Shown here: positions 16,433 to 22,366 of the stretch, one piece after another
Layout: every line of letters starts with the position of its first letter
Numbering within the stretch: position 1 is the first letter of the stretch
NCBI GenBank assembly: GCA_002344625.1
Contig: DDUE01000038.1
Coordinates: 1 to 22,366 of the forward strand
Length of the DNA: 22,366 nt
DNA from: Rhodocyclaceae bacterium UBA2346
GTDB taxonomy: Bacteria; Pseudomonadota; Gammaproteobacteria; Burkholderiales; Rhodocyclaceae
Direction: 5' to 3'
Position numbers and translations under genes: made by a program
Notes under the pieces: model-generated
Seen by the model: the letters and a program-made list of their open reading frames with translations, nothing else
Databases searched by the model: none
Told to the model about the DNA's origin: nothing

Positions 16433-18055
16433 CTAGGGTAGATTGTAGCGTCCGGGCGCAATGATGTTGTCGGGGTCGAACACTTGCTTGAGCTCTCGCA
16501 CTGTCTTCCAGTAATCCGGCGTGTTCGCGACGATCTCGTCCATCATGTCGGCGCGCGCGCGATAGACCTCGAGCCCGCGTGAGCGGATGAATGTCAGTAG
16601 TGCATCCGCACAACGGTGTGCGCGTGCCACCTCGTCCTCGGACGAACGATCAAATAATAAATTGATGACCGCCACCAGTGACGTCGGAGTTTCGACGTTG
16701 AGGGTCATGTAGAGAACGTGATCGAACTGCTTCGCCACCGTGGCCATGCCGTCGATGACTTCGGCCACCACCTTGCCGTCGAGCGGTAGCGCCGGATTGA
16801 CGAACAGTAGCCCGCAGCGTGACCGGTCGAGTTCGGCAGCACGCTTGCTACTATGGCCGAATTTCCACAGCAGGTTCTCGATTGCGACATCGGTTGGAAC
16901 GCCGAGCGCGAGTTTGTGTAGCGGGCGCATCGCTGCGATGGCCGCCGCATTCGCACGCGCGAACGGAATCGAGCGCAGGCGATGAGTGATCGCATAGCCG
17001 AAATCGAGAATCCCATCTGTTACGACCATCAAGCGCGCGAACTTGCGCGTACGTCGCCAGATCTCGACGAGGGCCGCACGCACCTGGCCGCGATTGCCGC
17101 TCACGGAAGCAAGGCTTGCCCACTCGTTGGGGGCCACCAGGTTGAGCACCTTGTCGGTTTCGCCCAGCGCGGCCTCCGGCGTGTAGCCGCACTCGTGCTC
17201 GAGATAGCGGGTGATGCCGTAGGCCATCGACGAGTGGGTGCGGGCACGGTTGCCGATATGGGTCACCGATGTAAGCAAGCCTTCGCGCTTCAGGCGTGCC
17301 AGTTCATTGATGAACAAGGGCAGGTCCGAGGTGTCGCGCAACGCTAGGGAAACGGCGACTTCGCTTGGGCGACGTGGATACAGGCGGAAGCATGCGCTGG
17401 TCACGATCCCAAAATTACCCTGGAAGAACAGTCCGTCGAGAATCGGTCCGAGCCCGAACGGATGGCAGTGCGCCAACGGAGAGTCGTCGCCCAAGCGCCT
17501 GAATCCGGTGCGCAGGATATCACCTGTACCGGTCACCACTTCCAGCCCGTAAAGATCATCCTTGCGCGGTCCGGTATAGCCTACGCCCCGGTCGAGCGCA
17601 TTGCCGATAATGCTGGTGTCCCGGCCGGCGCCCGTCACGTTGAAGGTGAGTTCAGGGCAGCGTCGTTCCAGGAATTCGTACAACTGCTGCTGGGTGACGC
17701 CCGGCTCGATCAACGCTACCGGATTGTCAAGTGAGATCTCATCTGCGTTGAGGATTTGGTTCATGCGGCTCAGGTCGACGGGGATGCAGTTGTCGACGAT
17801 GGGCGCGCGCGAGCCATAGCCCCAGTTCAGGCCGGTCGAGAAGGGGTAAAGTAGGGACCGGGTTTCACGCGCCAGTTTGATGATACTGACGACATCCTGT
17901 ACTGACTCGGGGCGTACTTCGTCGGCGCTTACCGAGGTGTAGCCGGTGACATTCGTCGTAGCATTCCGTTGGTAGCCGGGACGTACCGGCTCTCCGGAGG
18001 GGGTATCGGAACCTGTCAAATCGAGAAGCGACGATACGTCATCAGTCTTGAGCAT
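16433..18055 (-). CDS. FAD-binding oxidoreductase, vanillyl-alcohol oxidase/4-cresol dehydrogenase type
   Basis: This 540-residue flavoprotein has the PCMH-type FAD fold. Landmarks are PFSTGLNWGYGS (71-82, pyrophosphate loop), ALIEPGVTQQQLYEFLE (114-130), GNALDRGVGYTG (151-162), LEVVTGTGDILRTG (171-184) and GLFFQGNFGIVTS (208-220). The C-terminal motif FDPDNIIAPGRYN is also typical. These match the VAO/p-cresol methylhydroxylase branch, which oxidises phenolic substrates. The true substrate here cannot be read from sequence. The start at 18055 (MLKTDDVSS) is supported by GAGGGGGGAATC directly upstream; a frame starting 13 codons earlier lacks such a site. It leads the operon with two permeases and the exosortase-associated acyltransferase, suggesting it modifies a small molecule or lipid precursor in that pathway. 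Confidence 0.82.
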   Translation of the reverse strand: MLKTDDVSSLLDLTGSDTPSGEPVRPGYQRNATTNVTGYTSVSADEVRPESVQDVVSIIKLARETRSLLYPFSTGLNWGYGSRAPIVDNCIPVDLSRMNQILNADEISLDNPVALIEPGVTQQQLYEFLERRCPELTFNVTGAGRDTSIIGNALDRGVGYTGPRKDDLYGLEVVTGTGDILRTGFRRLGDDSPLAHCHPFGLGPILDGLFFQGNFGIVTSACFRLYPRRPSEVAVSLALRDTSDLPLFINELARLKREGLLTSVTHIGNRARTHSSMAYGITRYLEHECGYTPEAALGETDKVLNLVAPNEWASLASVSGNRGQVRAALVEIWRRTRKFARLMVVTDGILDFGYAITHRLRSIPFARANAAAIAAMRPLHKLALGVPTDVAIENLLWKFGHSSKRAAELDRSRCGLLFVNPALPLDGKVVAEVIDGMATVAKQFDHVLYMTLNVETPTSLVAVINLLFDRSSEDEVARAHRCADALLTFIRSRGLEVYRARADMMDEIVANTPDYWKTVRELKQVFDPDNIIAPGRYNLP

Positions 18056-18150
18056 GATTCCCCCCTCGTTACCTTTATATACAGTGGGGAGCAAGGATAG
18101 CGTGCGGTCTGCGGCCGGTCACGCAAATGTGCCACCGGTGTGTCTCTCGA

Positions 18151-18167
18151 TGTCGGTAAATTTTACA
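18151..18167. promoter_or_regulatory. Candidate enhancer (UAS) copy 1 for PEP-CTERM genes
   Basis: TGTCGGTAAATTTTACA lies 62 bp upstream of the -24/-12 promoter at 18230 and matches the element at 19259-19275 in 15 of 17 positions. The second copy is a TGTC-N9-GACA dyad; here the last half-site is TACA. It sits in the divergent region, 96 bp from the start codon of the flavin oxidase, so it could affect both directions. Binding by a sigma-54 activator is inferred. Confidence 0.6.
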
Positions 18168-18229
18168 GTGCTGTTTCTTATCTGTGCGGTGCTTTGAGAA
18201 AACTACAAAAAAACAATCTTCTATGTGCT

Positions 18230-18245
18230 TGGCACACTCCGTGCT
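18230..18245 (+). promoter_or_regulatory. Sigma-54 (-24/-12) promoter of the PepA-like gene
   Basis: TGGCACACTCCGTGCT fits the sigma-54 consensus TGGCAC-N7-TGCW with the invariant GG and GC ten bases apart. It lies about 100 bp before the start codon. Control of PEP-CTERM genes by RpoN with the PrsK/PrsR two-component system has been described in floc-forming betaproteobacteria, which agrees with this site. Confidence 0.75.
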
Positions 18246-18275
18246 TATGAGATGACAGCAAAAGAAGTTTCGGGA

Positions 18276-18308
18276 GCCGCAGGCGTAATTAAAAGCGTGC
18301 TTTGCGGC
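18276..18308 (+). other. 5' leader stem-loop of the PepA-like gene
   Basis: GCCGCA (18276-18281) pairs with TGCGGC (18303-18308). The stem can extend through AGGC/GCTT with wobble pairs and a bulge to about nine base pairs. It lies between the sigma-54 promoter and the ribosome binding site, 25 bp before it. A stabilising or regulatory role is possible. Confidence 0.35.
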
Positions 18309-18344
18309 AAAAAATTTTCAGTTCAGTAACTTAAAGGAATCATG

Positions 18345-19178
18345 ATGAGTATCAATAGCTACAAAAAAATCGTTTGGGGTGCGGGTCTGGCGGCTGCATG
18401 CGCTTTCGGCACGGTTGGTGTGGCCAATGCCGCACCGTCGTTCACGGTGAATCCGACCGTGATCGGAAATGATTTCTTGGAAGGTCTGGGTTTCGGAGCT
18501 GCACCGTTCGATTCTGATTTCATTCAAGGTCAGTCATCGTCGCAGGTGATTCTCGGTGCTGACGGAATTACGCAGGCTGGAGCGGGTTGGCTGAACTTGA
18601 CCGGGTTTAGCGGGCACAATTCGGCCAGTAGCGGACTCGGGTTTACGTTCACTTTGTGGGCCGAATACGAGTACACCGCGGTCGTGAAGTCGGGCGTTTT
18701 TGGTGTGCCGGGCAGTGTTAGCGACATTACGGCGCTCACCTATACGCTCTGGGCTTCGACCAACACGAATGGTGCGGCATCGACGACGGCCTTTTCTGAA
18801 GCGACGACTAGTTCGGCGGCTGCAGTTAATCGTGGCGCGTTTGCACAACAGATCGGTTTCGGTTCGTTGATCTCCGGTGATGGTGGCGCTGTCCTTAACG
18901 ATCAAGGTGGAACTGGTTTCAACACGGTTGCCAGCTACACCAATACCGAATTCGGCAACACCTTCTTCGTCGCGCCGTCGCCGTTCTACAATATTTTGTT
19001 CAACAACTTCAATAACACTCGTCAAGGCGTTGCTGTTAACGGCAATGTGATGGCGGTGAACTCGGCAAATGGTGGTGTCGATTTCAACGCGAATCGTGTG
19101 CCGGAACCGGCAACCTTGTTGCTTCTGGGTGCAGGGTTGATTGGTTTGGGTTTTGCAACTCGGCGCAACAAGGCGTGA
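18345..19178 (+). CDS. PEP-CTERM sorting-domain protein, PepA-like (flocculation-associated)
   Basis: This 277-residue exported protein has a signal peptide with a probable cut after ANA (27-29). Its body is rich in Asn, Gly, Ser and Thr and has no Cys after the signal peptide. A C-terminal exosortase sorting signal (252-277) has VPEP, a hydrophobic helix LLLLGAGLIGLGF and a basic tail ATRRNKA. Exosortase recognises this tail, anchoring or releasing the protein during export. The body segments DFIQGQSSS, GVPGS, FFVAPSPFYN and FNNTRQGV resemble, from memory, the flocculation-associated PEP-CTERM protein PepA. The ATG at 18345 is preferred to the adjacent one at 18342 because AAGGA then has a normal 6-base spacing. 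It is preceded by a sigma-54 promoter and ends in a strong terminator, so it is monocistronic. No exosortase gene is in the window. Confidence 0.85.
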   Translation: MSINSYKKIVWGAGLAAACAFGTVGVANAAPSFTVNPTVIGNDFLEGLGFGAAPFDSDFIQGQSSSQVILGADGITQAGAGWLNLTGFSGHNSASSGLGFTFTLWAEYEYTAVVKSGVFGVPGSVSDITALTYTLWASTNTNGAASTTAFSEATTSSAAAVNRGAFAQQIGFGSLISGDGGAVLNDQGGTGFNTVASYTNTEFGNTFFVAPSPFYNILFNNFNNTRQGVAVNGNVMAVNSANGGVDFNANRVPEPATLLLLGAGLIGLGFATRRNKA

Positions 19179-19201
19179 TTTGTCAAATTCGCTGATTCAA
19201 C

Positions 19202-19231
19202 AAAAAACCCGGCTAAGCAGCCGGGTTTTTT
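19202..19231. terminator. Strong, bidirectional intrinsic terminator
   Basis: AAAAAACCCGGCT (19202-19214) and AGCCGGGTTTTTT (19219-19231) form a perfect 13-bp stem over a 4-base loop. The T-tract (and A-tract on the other strand) makes it functional in both directions. It closes the PepA-like transcript and isolates the next gene. Confidence 0.92.
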
Positions 19232-19258
19232 GTGCTTGGCGACTGAGCTGTTAAGTTG

Positions 19259-19275
19259 TGTCGGAAAATTTGACA
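19259..19275. promoter_or_regulatory. Candidate enhancer (UAS) copy 2 for PEP-CTERM genes
   Basis: TGTCGGAAAATTTGACA is a TGTC-N9-GACA dyad, nested in a longer TTGTGTC-N9-GACACAA inverted repeat (19256-19278). It matches the element at 18151 in 15 of 17 positions. It lies 50 bp upstream of the -24/-12-like site. Centre-to-promoter distances for the two copies are about 71 and 59 bp, differing by about one helical turn. Confidence 0.62.
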
Positions 19276-19325
19276 CAAGATTTCGGCTTAAAAATTTTGT
19301 CTTTATAAAACAAAAGTTTAGTATT

Positions 19326-19341
19326 TAGCATAAAACTTGCT
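19326..19341 (+). promoter_or_regulatory. Sigma-54-like promoter of the THxN PEP-CTERM gene
   Basis: TAGCATAAAACTTGCT has a complete -12 element (TTGCT) with correct spacing. The -24 element is degenerate (TAGCAT for TGGCAC), including loss of one of the two usual G residues, so it may be weaker. The nearby enhancer-like dyad strengthens the call. It lies 48 bp before the start codon. Confidence 0.55.
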
Positions 19342-19388: not shown

Positions 19389-20210
19389 ATGAAAAAAATC
19401 ATCGGCTCCCTCGGTTTTGTCGGCACGATGCTCGCTTCGACCGTGGCTAGTGCTGCGCTGGTCACTGAATGGGATTTTCAGGCGGTCACAGTGTTTTCTG
19501 GATCGACTTTCAGCAGCGGTAGTGGTGTCAAGATCGATACCGCGAACTTGGTGAGTTGGGGGGCCAACGCGGGAGCGTCTACGGCGACCCGTCACACGCA
19601 GGCAGGTCTGAGCTCCAGTCGGTCGCGCAGTGCGCTTGGGATGACGGCAGGTGATGTATCTGGGGTTTTGCTGACGAACAACGTGCTGCCGGAATTCAGT
19701 GGCCAGATCACCCACTACAACAATGCTATTCAGTTGAGCTTTGCTAGCCTGCTTTCAACCTCGATTACGTCCAATCTGTTCCTGACGCCGAAAACACCGG
19801 TTGGTGAGCCTGTTCCACTCGATCCCAAGACATTCAATGTCAGGTTCACCGAAACTCCAAATATCGCGCGTTGCGGCTTCGAGTCAATCACTAGCTGTGA
19901 TGACATTTTCGTGATTTCTCTCGGAGATCTCGATTTCACGTTCGACTACAACGGGTATAGATACACAGTTGGTATCGTTGCCGATGGGCTCGGTCCCTTG
20001 ACAAAACTTCAGTGCGAGAAGGCAGGAGCTGCCGAAGGTTGTATAGGGTTTAAGACTGAAGAGGCCAAGTTTACCCAAGTCAACTTTGGGCTATTAATTA
20101 GCGCAAGGTCGCTGGAAGTGCCGGAGCCGAGTGTTCTCGCACTACTCGGTCTCAGTTTGATCGGCCTCGGGTTTTCTGGTCGGCGCAAGCTTTCAGGTAT
20201 GTTTAGTTGA
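19389..20210 (+). CDS. THxN-family PEP-CTERM sorting-domain protein
   Basis: This 273-residue exported protein has a signal peptide (MKKIIGSLGFVGTMLASTVA, cut after ASA at 20-22). The body contains the motif THYN (108-111, in GQITHYNNAI), characteristic of the THxN family of PEP-CTERM proteins. The C-terminal sorting signal (244-273) reads VPEPSVLALLGLSLIGLGF followed by the basic tail SGRRKLSGMFS. The tail is a little longer than usual. Cys residues in ARCGFESITSCDD and LQCEKAGAAEGC could form disulfides. The start at 19389 is chosen because it begins the signal peptide; an upstream in-frame ATG at 19362 falls in the leader hairpin region. A terminator follows at 20260. Its function at the cell surface or in the matrix is unknown. 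Confidence 0.85.
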   Translation: MKKIIGSLGFVGTMLASTVASAALVTEWDFQAVTVFSGSTFSSGSGVKIDTANLVSWGANAGASTATRHTQAGLSSSRSRSALGMTAGDVSGVLLTNNVLPEFSGQITHYNNAIQLSFASLLSTSITSNLFLTPKTPVGEPVPLDPKTFNVRFTETPNIARCGFESITSCDDIFVISLGDLDFTFDYNGYRYTVGIVADGLGPLTKLQCEKAGAAEGCIGFKTEEAKFTQVNFGLLISARSLEVPEPSVLALLGLSLIGLGFSGRRKLSGMFS

Positions 20211-20328: not shown

Positions 20329-20803
20329 TGTGTATTGACCCAGCAGAATCTGCACAGGTCAGATCGCTAATGCAAATGCCTCAGTGGGGGTTCTCATGTT
20401 CAGCGCCCGGTGCAGGCGCCGGTGGTTGTAGAAGTTGATCCAGTCGCCGAGCAGGCGGCTGGCGTGGTGCAGCGATTCAAACGGGTTGCGGGGCACGCAT
20501 TGATCCTTGAGCGTGCGGATCACCCGCTCGACCAGACCGTTCTGTTCCGGGCTGTGCGGCGTGATGAACTCCTGGCGCAGTCCGTAGCTCCTGACCAGCG
20601 CGGTGAAACTGCGGCTGGTGAAGATCGAGCCGTTGTCCGAGTGCAGCAGGAATGGCACCGGCACCCGACCCAGCGTTCTGAACCGCGCGATCAGGACCCG
20701 CTCCAGTGCCGGCTCGGCCGTCTTGGACTTTCCGCTGTGTGACAGGTGCCAGCCCAGCAACTCGCGGCTGTGGCAGTCGATCACCAGGGTCATCGTGGTC
20801 TAG
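20329..20803 (-). mobile_element. IS3-family element remnant A (3' end only)
   Basis: The segment keeps the 3' part of an IS3-family transposase gene on the minus strand plus a probable terminal end starting TGTGTATTGACC at about 20329. The rest of the element is missing: at about 20803 it meets a different IS in the opposite orientation. The exact terminal repeat cannot be proven without the other end. Confidence 0.65.
20359..20803 (-). pseudogene. IS3-family transposase OrfB, N-terminally truncated
   Basis: About 145 residues of the DDE integrase core remain. The first catalytic Asp is in LVIDCHSRELLGWHLS, the second in LLHSDNGSIFTSRSF, and the Glu in PEQNGLVERVIRTLKDQC. The tail is WINFYNHRRLHRALNMRTPTEAF. 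The helix-turn-helix and N-terminal part are absent. Just before MTLVIDC the frame has TAG where family members have Trp (GWTTLTLV), so the frame is closed at the break point. It is not functional. Confidence 0.85.
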
Positions 20804-21216
20804 CCGTTCGATGCGTACCGACTTTGTTCTGGATGCCCTGGAGCAGGCGCTCTACGCCCGCCAACCGGAGCGGGATAGCAGCCTGATCCATCATTCGGAT
20901 CGCGGGTCTCAGTACGTTTCCATCCGTTATACCGAGCGATTGGCAGAGGCCCGCATCGAGCCTTCCGTTGGTAGCAAGGGCGATTCCTACGACAACGCCT
21001 TGGCCGAAACCATCAACGGCCTCTACAAGGCCGAACTGATCTACCGTCGGGCGCCACTGGAAAACAGTGGAATCGCTCGAACTCGCCACCCTCGAATGGG
21101 TGGCCTGGTTCAACCACCAGCGACTCCTTGAGCCCATCGGCTACATCCCACCCGCCGAGGCTGAGGATCGGTATTATCTGCAACTCGCCGTTCAGGCCGA
21201 ACACGCCTGCACTTAA
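20804..21216 (+). pseudogene. IS3-family transposase OrfB, truncated and frameshifted
   Basis: The frame gives SMRTDFVLDALEQALYARQP, LIHHSDRGSQYVSIRYTERL (second catalytic Asp) and GDSYDNALAETINGLYKAEL (catalytic Glu). At about 21057 one extra C shifts the frame (RAP then WKTVESLELATLEWVAWFNH in the next frame). The C-terminus continues as RLLEPIGYIPPAEAEDRYY and stops at 21216. The N-terminal half is lost. It is inactive unless the extra base is a sequencing error, and even then it is truncated. Confidence 0.85.
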
Positions 21217-21237
21217 GCCACGGAGCCTCTACGAAAC
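20804..21237 (+). mobile_element. IS3-family element remnant B (3' end, interrupted by element C)
   Basis: This is a second IS3-family remnant, of a different subgroup, on the plus strand. After its transposase stop at 21216 the sequence AGCCTCTACGAAAC looks like the start of its right terminal repeat, cut short at 21237 by the end of element C. Its left part is missing at the junction with remnant A. Confidence 0.65.
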
Positions 21238-21278
21238 TGAACTGACCCCCAGAAGTTGGACGGTCACAATTTCGCGGA

Positions 21279-22178
21279 TCAGGCGGTGCTTCTCAATCGG
21301 TACTCCACCGGACTGAGCCCCTGTAGCCCGAGCTTGATGCGCTCGCAGTTGTAGTAGTGGACGTAATCATGCACGCCCGCTTCGAGCGCATCAATGCTGT
21401 CGGGCCTTTCGAGATGGAAATACTCAGCTTTCAGCGTACCGAAGAAGCTTTCAATCGCCGCGTTGTCGAAGCAATTGCCCTTGCGGCTCATGCTTTGCTT
21501 GACTCCGCGTCGCGCGAGCATCGCTCGGTAGGGCTGCATCTTGTAGTGCCAGCCTTGGTCGGAGTGCACGATCAGGCCGGCGGCGCAACTGGTCTGCGAG
21601 AGCGCGGCCTCGAGCATGCTGGAAACCATCTCGAAGACTGGGCGCCTTGCCATGCGGTACGCGACGATCTCGCCGTTGTACAGGTCTATGCAGGCCGACA
21701 GGTAGAGCTTATGGCCGCTCACATTGAACTCGGTGACATCGGTCGCCCACTTCTGGTTCGGGGCGGTCGCGCAGAAGTCGCGTTGCAGAACGTTGGGCAC
21801 GTGCTCATCGCTCATGCCCGGAACATGCCGAGAGCGCTTCTTCGCCCGAATCAACGCGCGCAGCCCCATCTTCTGCATTAGACGCTGCACGCACTTGTGG
21901 TTGACCGGTTCTTCCATTGAATTGCACAGCAACGCCGTGATTCGCCGGTATCCATAGCGACCCTTGTGCTCGTCATAGACGGTGCGGATTCTGGTCTCCA
22001 TGTCGCTTTGATGGTTGGCGCGCTGGGTCGCCTGGTACTGGTAGTAGAACGTGCTGCGCGCCAGGCCTGCGACCTGCAACAGGTCCGCCAACTTATGGTC
22101 ATGCCTCAACCCGGCAATCAGACGCGCTTTGTCGGCGCAGCTGACCTCTTCGACCGGATCAAGGCCTGCAATTTTTTT
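21279..22178 (-). CDS. IS3-family transposase OrfB (by -1 frameshift from OrfA)
   Basis: The protein begins after the slippery site as KKIAGLDPVEEVSCADKARL and has an HTH-like region (DLLQVAGLARSTFYYQ). Next come the HTH_21-type stretch GRYGYRRITALL and the catalytic DDE triad: Asp in KWATDVTEFNV, Asp in GLIVHSDQGWHYKMQ, and Glu in CFDNAAIESFFGTLKAEYFH. It ends YYNCERIKLGLQGLSPVEYR. There are no stops or missing motifs, so it looks active. A frame with an ATG at 22271 exists, but its first part is the antisense-like overlap with orfA; production of OrfAB by frameshifting is the rule in this family. Confidence 0.88.
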   Translation of the reverse strand, partial: KKIAGLDPVEEVSCADKARLIAGLRHDHKLADLLQVAGLARSTFYYQYQATQRANHQSDMETRIRTVYDEHKGRYGYRRITALLCNSMEEPVNHKCVQRLMQKMGLRALIRAKKRSRHVPGMSDEHVPNVLQRDFCATAPNQKWATDVTEFNVSGHKLYLSACIDLYNGEIVAYRMARRPVFEMVSSMLEAALSQTSCAAGLIVHSDQGWHYKMQPYRAMLARRGVKQSMSRKGNCFDNAAIESFFGTLKAEYFHLERPDSIDALEAGVHDYVHYYNCERIKLGLQGLSPVEYRLRSTA

Positions 22179-22366
22179 AGGTACGCGACCTCCGCGCGCA
22201 GTCGGTCGTTCTCTTCCCGCAGGGCTTTCTCCGCATCGGCAACGACCGTGCTCGACGGTGCTGCAGCGCATCGTTCTGGCTTCATCTTGGGCTGTTCTTC
22301 TTCTCCGCTCTCGCTTGCCTGCAAGCGGCCTTGATCGAGATTGCGTCGCCAGACCACGACCTGATT
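22118..22366 (-). CDS. IS3-family transposase OrfA, C-terminal part (partial)
   Basis: This is the 3' end of orfA, entering from the right edge and stopping at 22118. It includes a leucine-zipper-like coiled coil, EKALREENDRLRAEVAYLKK, then LQALIRSKRSAAPTKRV. The leading HTH lies outside the window. A run of seven A residues (22178-22172 on the minus strand) within the codons for KK is the expected -1 slippery sequence leading into OrfB. Confidence 0.8.
   Translation of the reverse strand, partial: NQVVVWRRNLDQGRLQASESGEEEQPKMKPERCAAAPSSTVVADAEKALREENDRLRAEVAYLKKLQALIRSKRSAAPTKRV

Follow-up and report, generated by a model that had tools for sequence, protein, structure and literature searches.

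The predicted PrsR/sigma-54 cassette of two tandem PEP-CTERM genes in a Rhodocyclaceae bacterium, its spacer ladder and its candidate targets beyond surface-protein sorting

Two tandem PEP-CTERM genes and their upstream cassettes

The window analysed here, a stretch of 22,366 nucleotides (contig DDUE01000038.1, positions 1 to 22,366) from the assembly GCA_002344625.1 of Rhodocyclaceae bacterium UBA2346, carries, on the + strand, a tandem pair of PEP-CTERM genes, each with its own upstream cassette, and both very probably carry the known PEP-CTERM control cassette of motif 1, PrsR and sigma-54. The cassette is not new, since it corresponds to the motif 1 and motif 2 of Haft 2006 (PMC1569441), where motif 1 is the predicted PrsR site and motif 2 the predicted sigma-54 promoter, and where 99 of 167 proteobacterial PEP-CTERM genes were found to have the two upstream. 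The window is thus a further instance of the cassette described in 2006, and both the observation and the reading of the preliminary description are correct; its assignment of the motif to PrsR, put forward there as its own suggestion, is supported as a prediction, being the one published in Haft 2006. The additions made here are a helical ladder of spacers, an HprK-related operon and, above all, a covarying sphingomonad RNA.

The first gene (18342..19178) encodes a protein of 278 aa assigned to the flocculation-associated PepA family (NF033554, 118.9 bits, cut-off 80), with a PEP-CTERM domain scoring 28.5 bits against PF07589 (cut-off 20.7). The second (19389..20210), which is intact, encodes a protein of 273 aa of the THxN family (NF038125, 225.3 bits, cut-off 85), and its PEP-CTERM domain scores 27.6 bits against the same model and cut-off. 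To the left lies a divergent gene for a protein with a FAD-binding domain (16433-18094). When the PepA-type protein was used as a query, no relative was found among the genome contigs searched.

Upstream of the pepA-type gene, the first copy of motif 1 (TGTCGGTAAATTTTACA, 18151..18167, + strand), its predicted PrsR site, agrees with the published motif in its length of 17 nt and its TTTACA end, the features to which the comparison is limited. It is followed after 62 nt by a -24/-12 (sigma-54) site of the form GG-N10-GC (TGGCACACTCCGTGC, 18230..18244, + strand). The second copy (TGTCGGAAAATTTGACA, 19259..19275, + strand) ends in TTGACA, one substitution away from the published end, and is followed after 50 nt by a -24/-12-like site (TAGCATAAAACTTGC, 19326..19340, + strand), partly degenerate (AG-N10-GC). 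The preliminary description had reported two 17-mers alike at 15 of 17 positions, each followed by a -24/-12-type site (18230 and 19326) at centre-to-promoter distances of 71 and 59, with the second copy forming a dyad within a longer inverted repeat. The coordinates and letters were exact, the distances were correct, and the repeat was found as 7-bp arms, TTGTGTC-N9-GACACAA, at 19256-19278, which makes the second site the more perfect dyad of the two. Measured from the motif end to the -24 element, the spacers differ by 12 bp and both fall inside the published range of 32-92 (mean 62.8, SD 10.6; PMC1569441), as do the start codons, 97 and 48 nt from the TGC end, with respect to the published 23-221 nt after motif 2. 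The arrangement is therefore like that of Haft 2006 (17-nt motif, TTTACA end in copy 1, spacer, -24/-12 element, PEP-CTERM gene downstream), and unlike it in the TTGACA end of copy 2 and the TAGC at its -24 position, in a comparison by length and end only.

Since the DNA downstream of the motifs is AT-rich, with a G+C content of 41% and 33%, a chance resemblance in intergenic DNA was considered, and we give it a negligible probability. Scanning the window with up to 3 mismatches returned two motif matches only, both exact to the pattern, whereas 100 shuffles of the window gave a mean of 0.04 matches and never two at once (0/100). In 20,000 mononucleotide shuffles, a TRGC-N8-TGC box arose by chance at a frequency of 0.4% for site 1 and 0.3% for site 2, the box being sought 40-100 nt downstream or as far as the stretch reached. 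Chance is likewise contradicted by the associations within the source genome and across 150 genomes given below.

Another reading holds that sigma-54 drives gene 1 only, gene 2 being transcribed from another promoter or by read-through while its motif copy decays. It is compatible with the main reading as far as gene 1 is concerned, and the odds of the two overlap. The second -24 box is TAGC instead of TGGC and is the weaker of the two sites; among 29 counted matches at loci from the order-wide search, with chance matches left in, TGGC was present in 26 and TAGC in 3. The TTGACA right half of copy 2 points in the same direction. However, a likely terminator lies between the genes (19208..19225, + strand; a CCCGGCT-AAGC-AGCCGGG hairpin followed by T6, read from the sequence), so that each gene probably has its own promoter. 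Moreover, the better dyad, with its 7-bp arms, belongs to the second site, the spacer of 50 is common to four TTACA-type sites of PrsR-positive genomes, and gene 2 is intact. We thus regard this reading as rather unlikely, and favour the one in which both genes are under the cassette.

Comparable systems have been characterized in part. In Aquincola tertiaricarbonis, pepA is transcribed in an RpoN1-dependent manner from a start that maps to a -24/-12 promoter, upstream of which an enhancer had previously been predicted (PMC9850573). Like the window genes, Aquincola pepA is thus a PEP-CTERM gene with a -24/-12 promoter, mapped in that case, and an upstream enhancer; it is directly followed by prsT (PMC9850573), whereas the first window gene is followed by another PEP-CTERM gene that has a cassette to itself. 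In Zoogloea, prsK and prsR mutants are planktonic, and this is bypassed by PepA overexpression, according to the summary of PMC9012009. Against the main reading counts the Aquincola mutant with an insertion in epsB2, a neighbour of prsK and prsR, in which flocculation was not restored by plasmid-borne prsK-prsR (PMC9850573).

Cassettes and the PrsR system within the assembly

The source genome is represented by a 53% complete assembly of 1.75 Mb in 89 contigs. A composite pattern (motif, 40-70 nt, -24/-12 element) was found at four places in it, the two in the window, C50:2634 and C47:48105, and the reversed pattern at none; C74:71479 has one more cassette, the fifth, in which the spacer is 74 nt. 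A looser composite pattern gave one further match, on C35. Motif 1 alone, with up to 3 mismatches, has seven matches in the genome, five of which are the cassettes, while the remaining ones are located inside an 892-aa frame (C31) and near a contig end (C15). Four of the five cassettes precede PEP-CTERM genes and all four identified PEP-CTERM genes have a cassette; further such genes may lie in the unassembled part or have escaped detection. The preliminary description had proposed to scan the genome for the motif and the -24/-12 element together upstream of other PEP-CTERM genes, and such co-occurrence was found on C50 and C47.

The C50 cassette precedes a gene for another THxN PEP-CTERM protein (225.1 bits). 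Transposase frames, IS3-type by eye, are found at the right end of the window (20359-22271) as well as directly upstream of the C50 cassette (L019:1459-2549), and both THxN PEP-CTERM loci thus adjoin such frames. The C47 cassette precedes the gene for the exosortase-dependent protein XDP1 (193.7 bits, cut-off 125), which the Pfam PEP-CTERM search of the genome had missed and which was recovered via the motif. In this locus (L021:5094-9013), a second PrsT-like TPR gene (542.1 bits) is located directly upstream of the XDP1 gene, its stop codon being immediately followed by motif 1.

As in the systems of Haft 2006 (PMC1569441), PrsR, PrsK and PrsT are all encoded in the source genome. They are found together on C19, each over its cut-off (727.4 bits for PrsR, cut-off 502.6; 852.9 for PrsK; 847 for PrsT), along with an EpsB2 glycosyltransferase (520.6 bits). 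With the looser pattern, no cassette was found in the 18 kb of C19 examined.

The cassette tracks PrsR across the order

The composite pattern (40-70 nt) was found at 114 sites in 46 of 150 genomes from the order of the source organism, and the reversed pattern at 7 sites. PrsR was present over the cut-off in 37 of the 150 genomes, and a site was found in 31 of these 37 versus 15 of the 113 others (Fisher p = 4e-15, a value that treats these related genomes as independent); 91 of the 114 sites are in PrsR-positive genomes. With spacers widened to 40-100 nt, the corresponding figures are 33 of 37 and 21 of 113, which leaves four PrsR-positive genomes with no site at 40-100 nt. Of the 15 PrsR-negative genomes with a site at 40-70 nt, six have TGACA-type matches only, which are probably due to chance, and in two (G092, G128) the PrsR matches are truncated and score below the cut-off. 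Several of the remaining ones (e.g., G005, G082, G100, G137) have what look like real cassettes, in which case PrsR may have been missed or another activator may act.

These genomes bear on a further explanation, namely that the motif is the site of another sigma-54 activator of the NtrC family, with which PrsR merely co-occurs. Besides the 15 genomes having a site and no PrsR over the cut-off, it draws on the source genome itself, where 25 of the 26 matches to the PrsR model (TIGR02915) are weaker or partial and represent other response regulators and sigma-54 activators. Yet the C19 protein is the sole match above the curated cut-off, and the cassette tracks PrsR genome by genome. In addition, DVUA0057, a PrsR-like regulator of Desulfovibrio vulgaris, enriched five predicted PEP-CTERM targets in vitro (PMC3333781), although the organism is distant and, according to a figure legend in that report, no binding site motif was validated for DVUA0057. 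We consider a different activator very unlikely, and PrsR the best candidate for motif 1.

Spacers follow a helical ladder

The distance between motif 1 and the promoter is not evenly distributed. All 129 TTACA-type sites with spacers of 40-100 nt in PrsR-positive genomes fall on five rungs, the limits of which were set after inspection of the data and in genomes that are related: 50-55 (13 sites), 60-65 (68), 73-77 (18), 81-88 (18) and 94-98 (12). In these genomes, no TTACA-type site was found at 40-49, 56-59, 66-72, 78-80, 89-93 or 99-100. Outside the 129 are 13 TGACA-type sites at 40-100 nt and the sites with spacers below 40, and one motif copy (G050:C2:157299) is counted twice in the ladder, with spacers of 64 and 86. 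When the TGACA-type sites are included, 138 of 142 are on rungs, the four off-rung ones all being TGACA-type (58, 68, 68 and 72). The extra searches gave 18 sites versus 4 reversed at 10-39 nt and 65 versus 6 reversed at 71-100 nt.

The best single period is 11.2 bp, with a vector length of 0.72, a value reached by none of 2,000 uniform random sets; the periodicity of the 61 sites outside 60-67 was likewise reached by 0/2000, and retaining one site per genome and spacer (109 sites) gave a vector length of 0.70. In PrsR-negative genomes, the rungs hold 22 of the 24 TTACA-type sites and 9 of the 13 TGACA-type ones. Given that the TTACA-type ones are mostly on rungs, these genomes do not provide a clean negative control, and the result is as expected if most of their TTACA-type sites are real. 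A second set, consisting of at least 119 strict cassettes from named records, the species of which may overlap with those of the 150 genomes, has spacers of 42-43 (7), 48-55 (18) and 60-66 (94), and none at 44-47, 56-59 or 67-70 among the matches listed. The spacers of the window (50, 62) and those elsewhere in its genome (62, 63, 74) are on rungs as well. The available text of Haft 2006 gives the mean and spread of the spacer, and no ladder was found in it (PMC1569441).

The ladder fits an activator that acts over a short distance and has to face the polymerase on one side of the DNA, and the genome comparison suggests that motif 1 and the promoter lie on the same face of the helix. In the mechanism that we propose, PrsK would phosphorylate the response regulator PrsR, which would then bind the dyad-like motif 1 and contact the sigma-54 RNA polymerase waiting at the -24/-12 element, 50 or 62 bp downstream, the promoter being opened by ATP hydrolysis. 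The spacers would differ by whole turns because both sites must stay on the same helix face. In the source organism, the two surface proteins would be co-expressed with the exopolysaccharide system they serve.

Cassettes in front of genes without a PEP-CTERM tail

Of the strict cassettes, a sample of at least 119, 60 are followed by a protein with a C-terminal sorting tail (called by a regular expression, with L088 probably spurious), 20 by a hairpin (as judged with a strict rule) and 34 by something else, while in 5 the sequence ends too early to tell. Some of the 34 are less regular RNA forms (e.g., L121, L133, L145) or small proteins. Several cassettes, in Thiobacillus (L034, L052, L103), in sphingomonads (L035, L039, L082) and also at L130 and L150, are followed by small frames of about 35-100 aa that resemble membrane proteins; the three sphingomonad loci have 43-nt spacers, and the sequence of L035 is cut off.

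The fifth cassette of the source genome, on C74 (L020:2295-5480), precedes an operon with no PEP-CTERM gene, which encodes, in order, a protein without a family match, a 115-aa frame without a family match, an HprK-related kinase A (TIGR04352, 355.3 bits) and a nucleotidyltransferase (PF14907). The 115-aa frame may be PqqD-like, by analogy with such systems. Across the order, a strict cassette is present upstream on the same strand in 8 of 25 TIGR04352 loci (that of the source genome included) and on the opposite strand in none of the 25; two more have a looser cassette, and at 15 no cassette was found within the about 1.5 kb examined. The further cassette-bearing HprK-related operons are L189, L190, L192, L194, L197, L199 and L208-L210. 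At the 10 cassette-bearing TIGR04352 loci, the first frame has, by eye, a Tat-like signal of RRR- or RRK-type near its start.

A candidate structured RNA in sphingomonads

Many sphingomonad cassettes are followed by no convincing reading frame. Instead, a hairpin is found directly behind the cassette, about 30 nt after the -12 box, with the consensus GAGGCGG...GGUCUCC...CCGCCUC (L053:7765-7850 and 22 other cassette loci, as well as L184-L188). Compensatory changes were observed in 8 of 9 predicted pairs among 20 aligned sequences. In a trimmed set of 14, the helix has 11 pairs with 93.4% of the cells paired, versus at most 56.6% if it is slid by one to three columns, and both-sided changes occur in 5 of the 11 pairs. 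Its covariation score was reached by none of 500 shuffles; one of the five shuffle measures, the number of pair types, was not beaten outright, being reached by 34 of the 500.

A covariance model built without any promoter sequence found matches in 6 of 99 genomes of the sphingomonad order, one of them the source genome of the model. The five new copies, new in that they have no 40-mer in common with L032-L150, are all (5/5) located behind a cassette with a 64-65 nt spacer. At E <=0.1, the model matched 23 of the 60 cassette-bearing loci examined, 14 of which are the training set and one of which (L094) is cut off. No match was found in the genome of L069; the misses may be due to limits of the initial search, stricter filters and a divergent Sphingomonas form (L049, L069, L090, L040). 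In 6 of 10 loci examined (L040, L049, L062, L063, L093, L095), the convergent gene is, by eye, that of the monothiol glutaredoxin grxD. A locus from a record titled Cytophagales (L132) has a cassette and hairpin like the sphingomonad ones, perhaps due to a binning error in the assembly.

Taken from alignments and genomic position, these results suggest that the sphingomonad hairpin is a candidate structured RNA behind a predicted PrsR/sigma-54 cassette. A search of 19 hairpin loci against Rfam at gathering thresholds returned tRNAs only, with no sRNA family at the hairpin loci, and that of the L053 stretch nothing up to E = 1. By description only, the hairpin can be likened to the SuhB sRNA of Sphingopyxis granuli, a regulatory RNA that is also short and is conserved within one genus of sphingomonads; SuhB, of 61 nt, is described as being controlled by growth rate, and a link to sigma-54 is absent from the available description (PMC6563040). 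A literature search that covered mostly open-access papers returned no description of the hairpin RNA, of the link to the HprK-related operon or of the ladder.

A possible wider PrsR/sigma-54 regulon

Overall, we find it somewhat probable that the PrsR/sigma-54 regulon is wider than the PEP-CTERM genes and includes the HprK-related operon and the sphingomonad RNA, with a ladder of helical turns setting the distance between PrsR and the polymerase. The operon, a similar one being found in relatives, would then add a kinase, a small protein and a secreted protein with a Tat-like signal. The controls give the cassette predictive value: with the little background in the 150 genomes (7 reversed versus 114 sites), PrsR targets can be listed from the combination of motif, promoter and spacer. 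Since that list already includes a candidate structured RNA and an operon whose kinase is unexplained, roles of PrsK/PrsR beyond surface-protein sorting become directly testable. If the wider regulon is real, the conserved RNA loop GGUCUCC could pair with ribosome-binding sites, and a switch linked to exopolysaccharide would thereby act on other mRNAs too.
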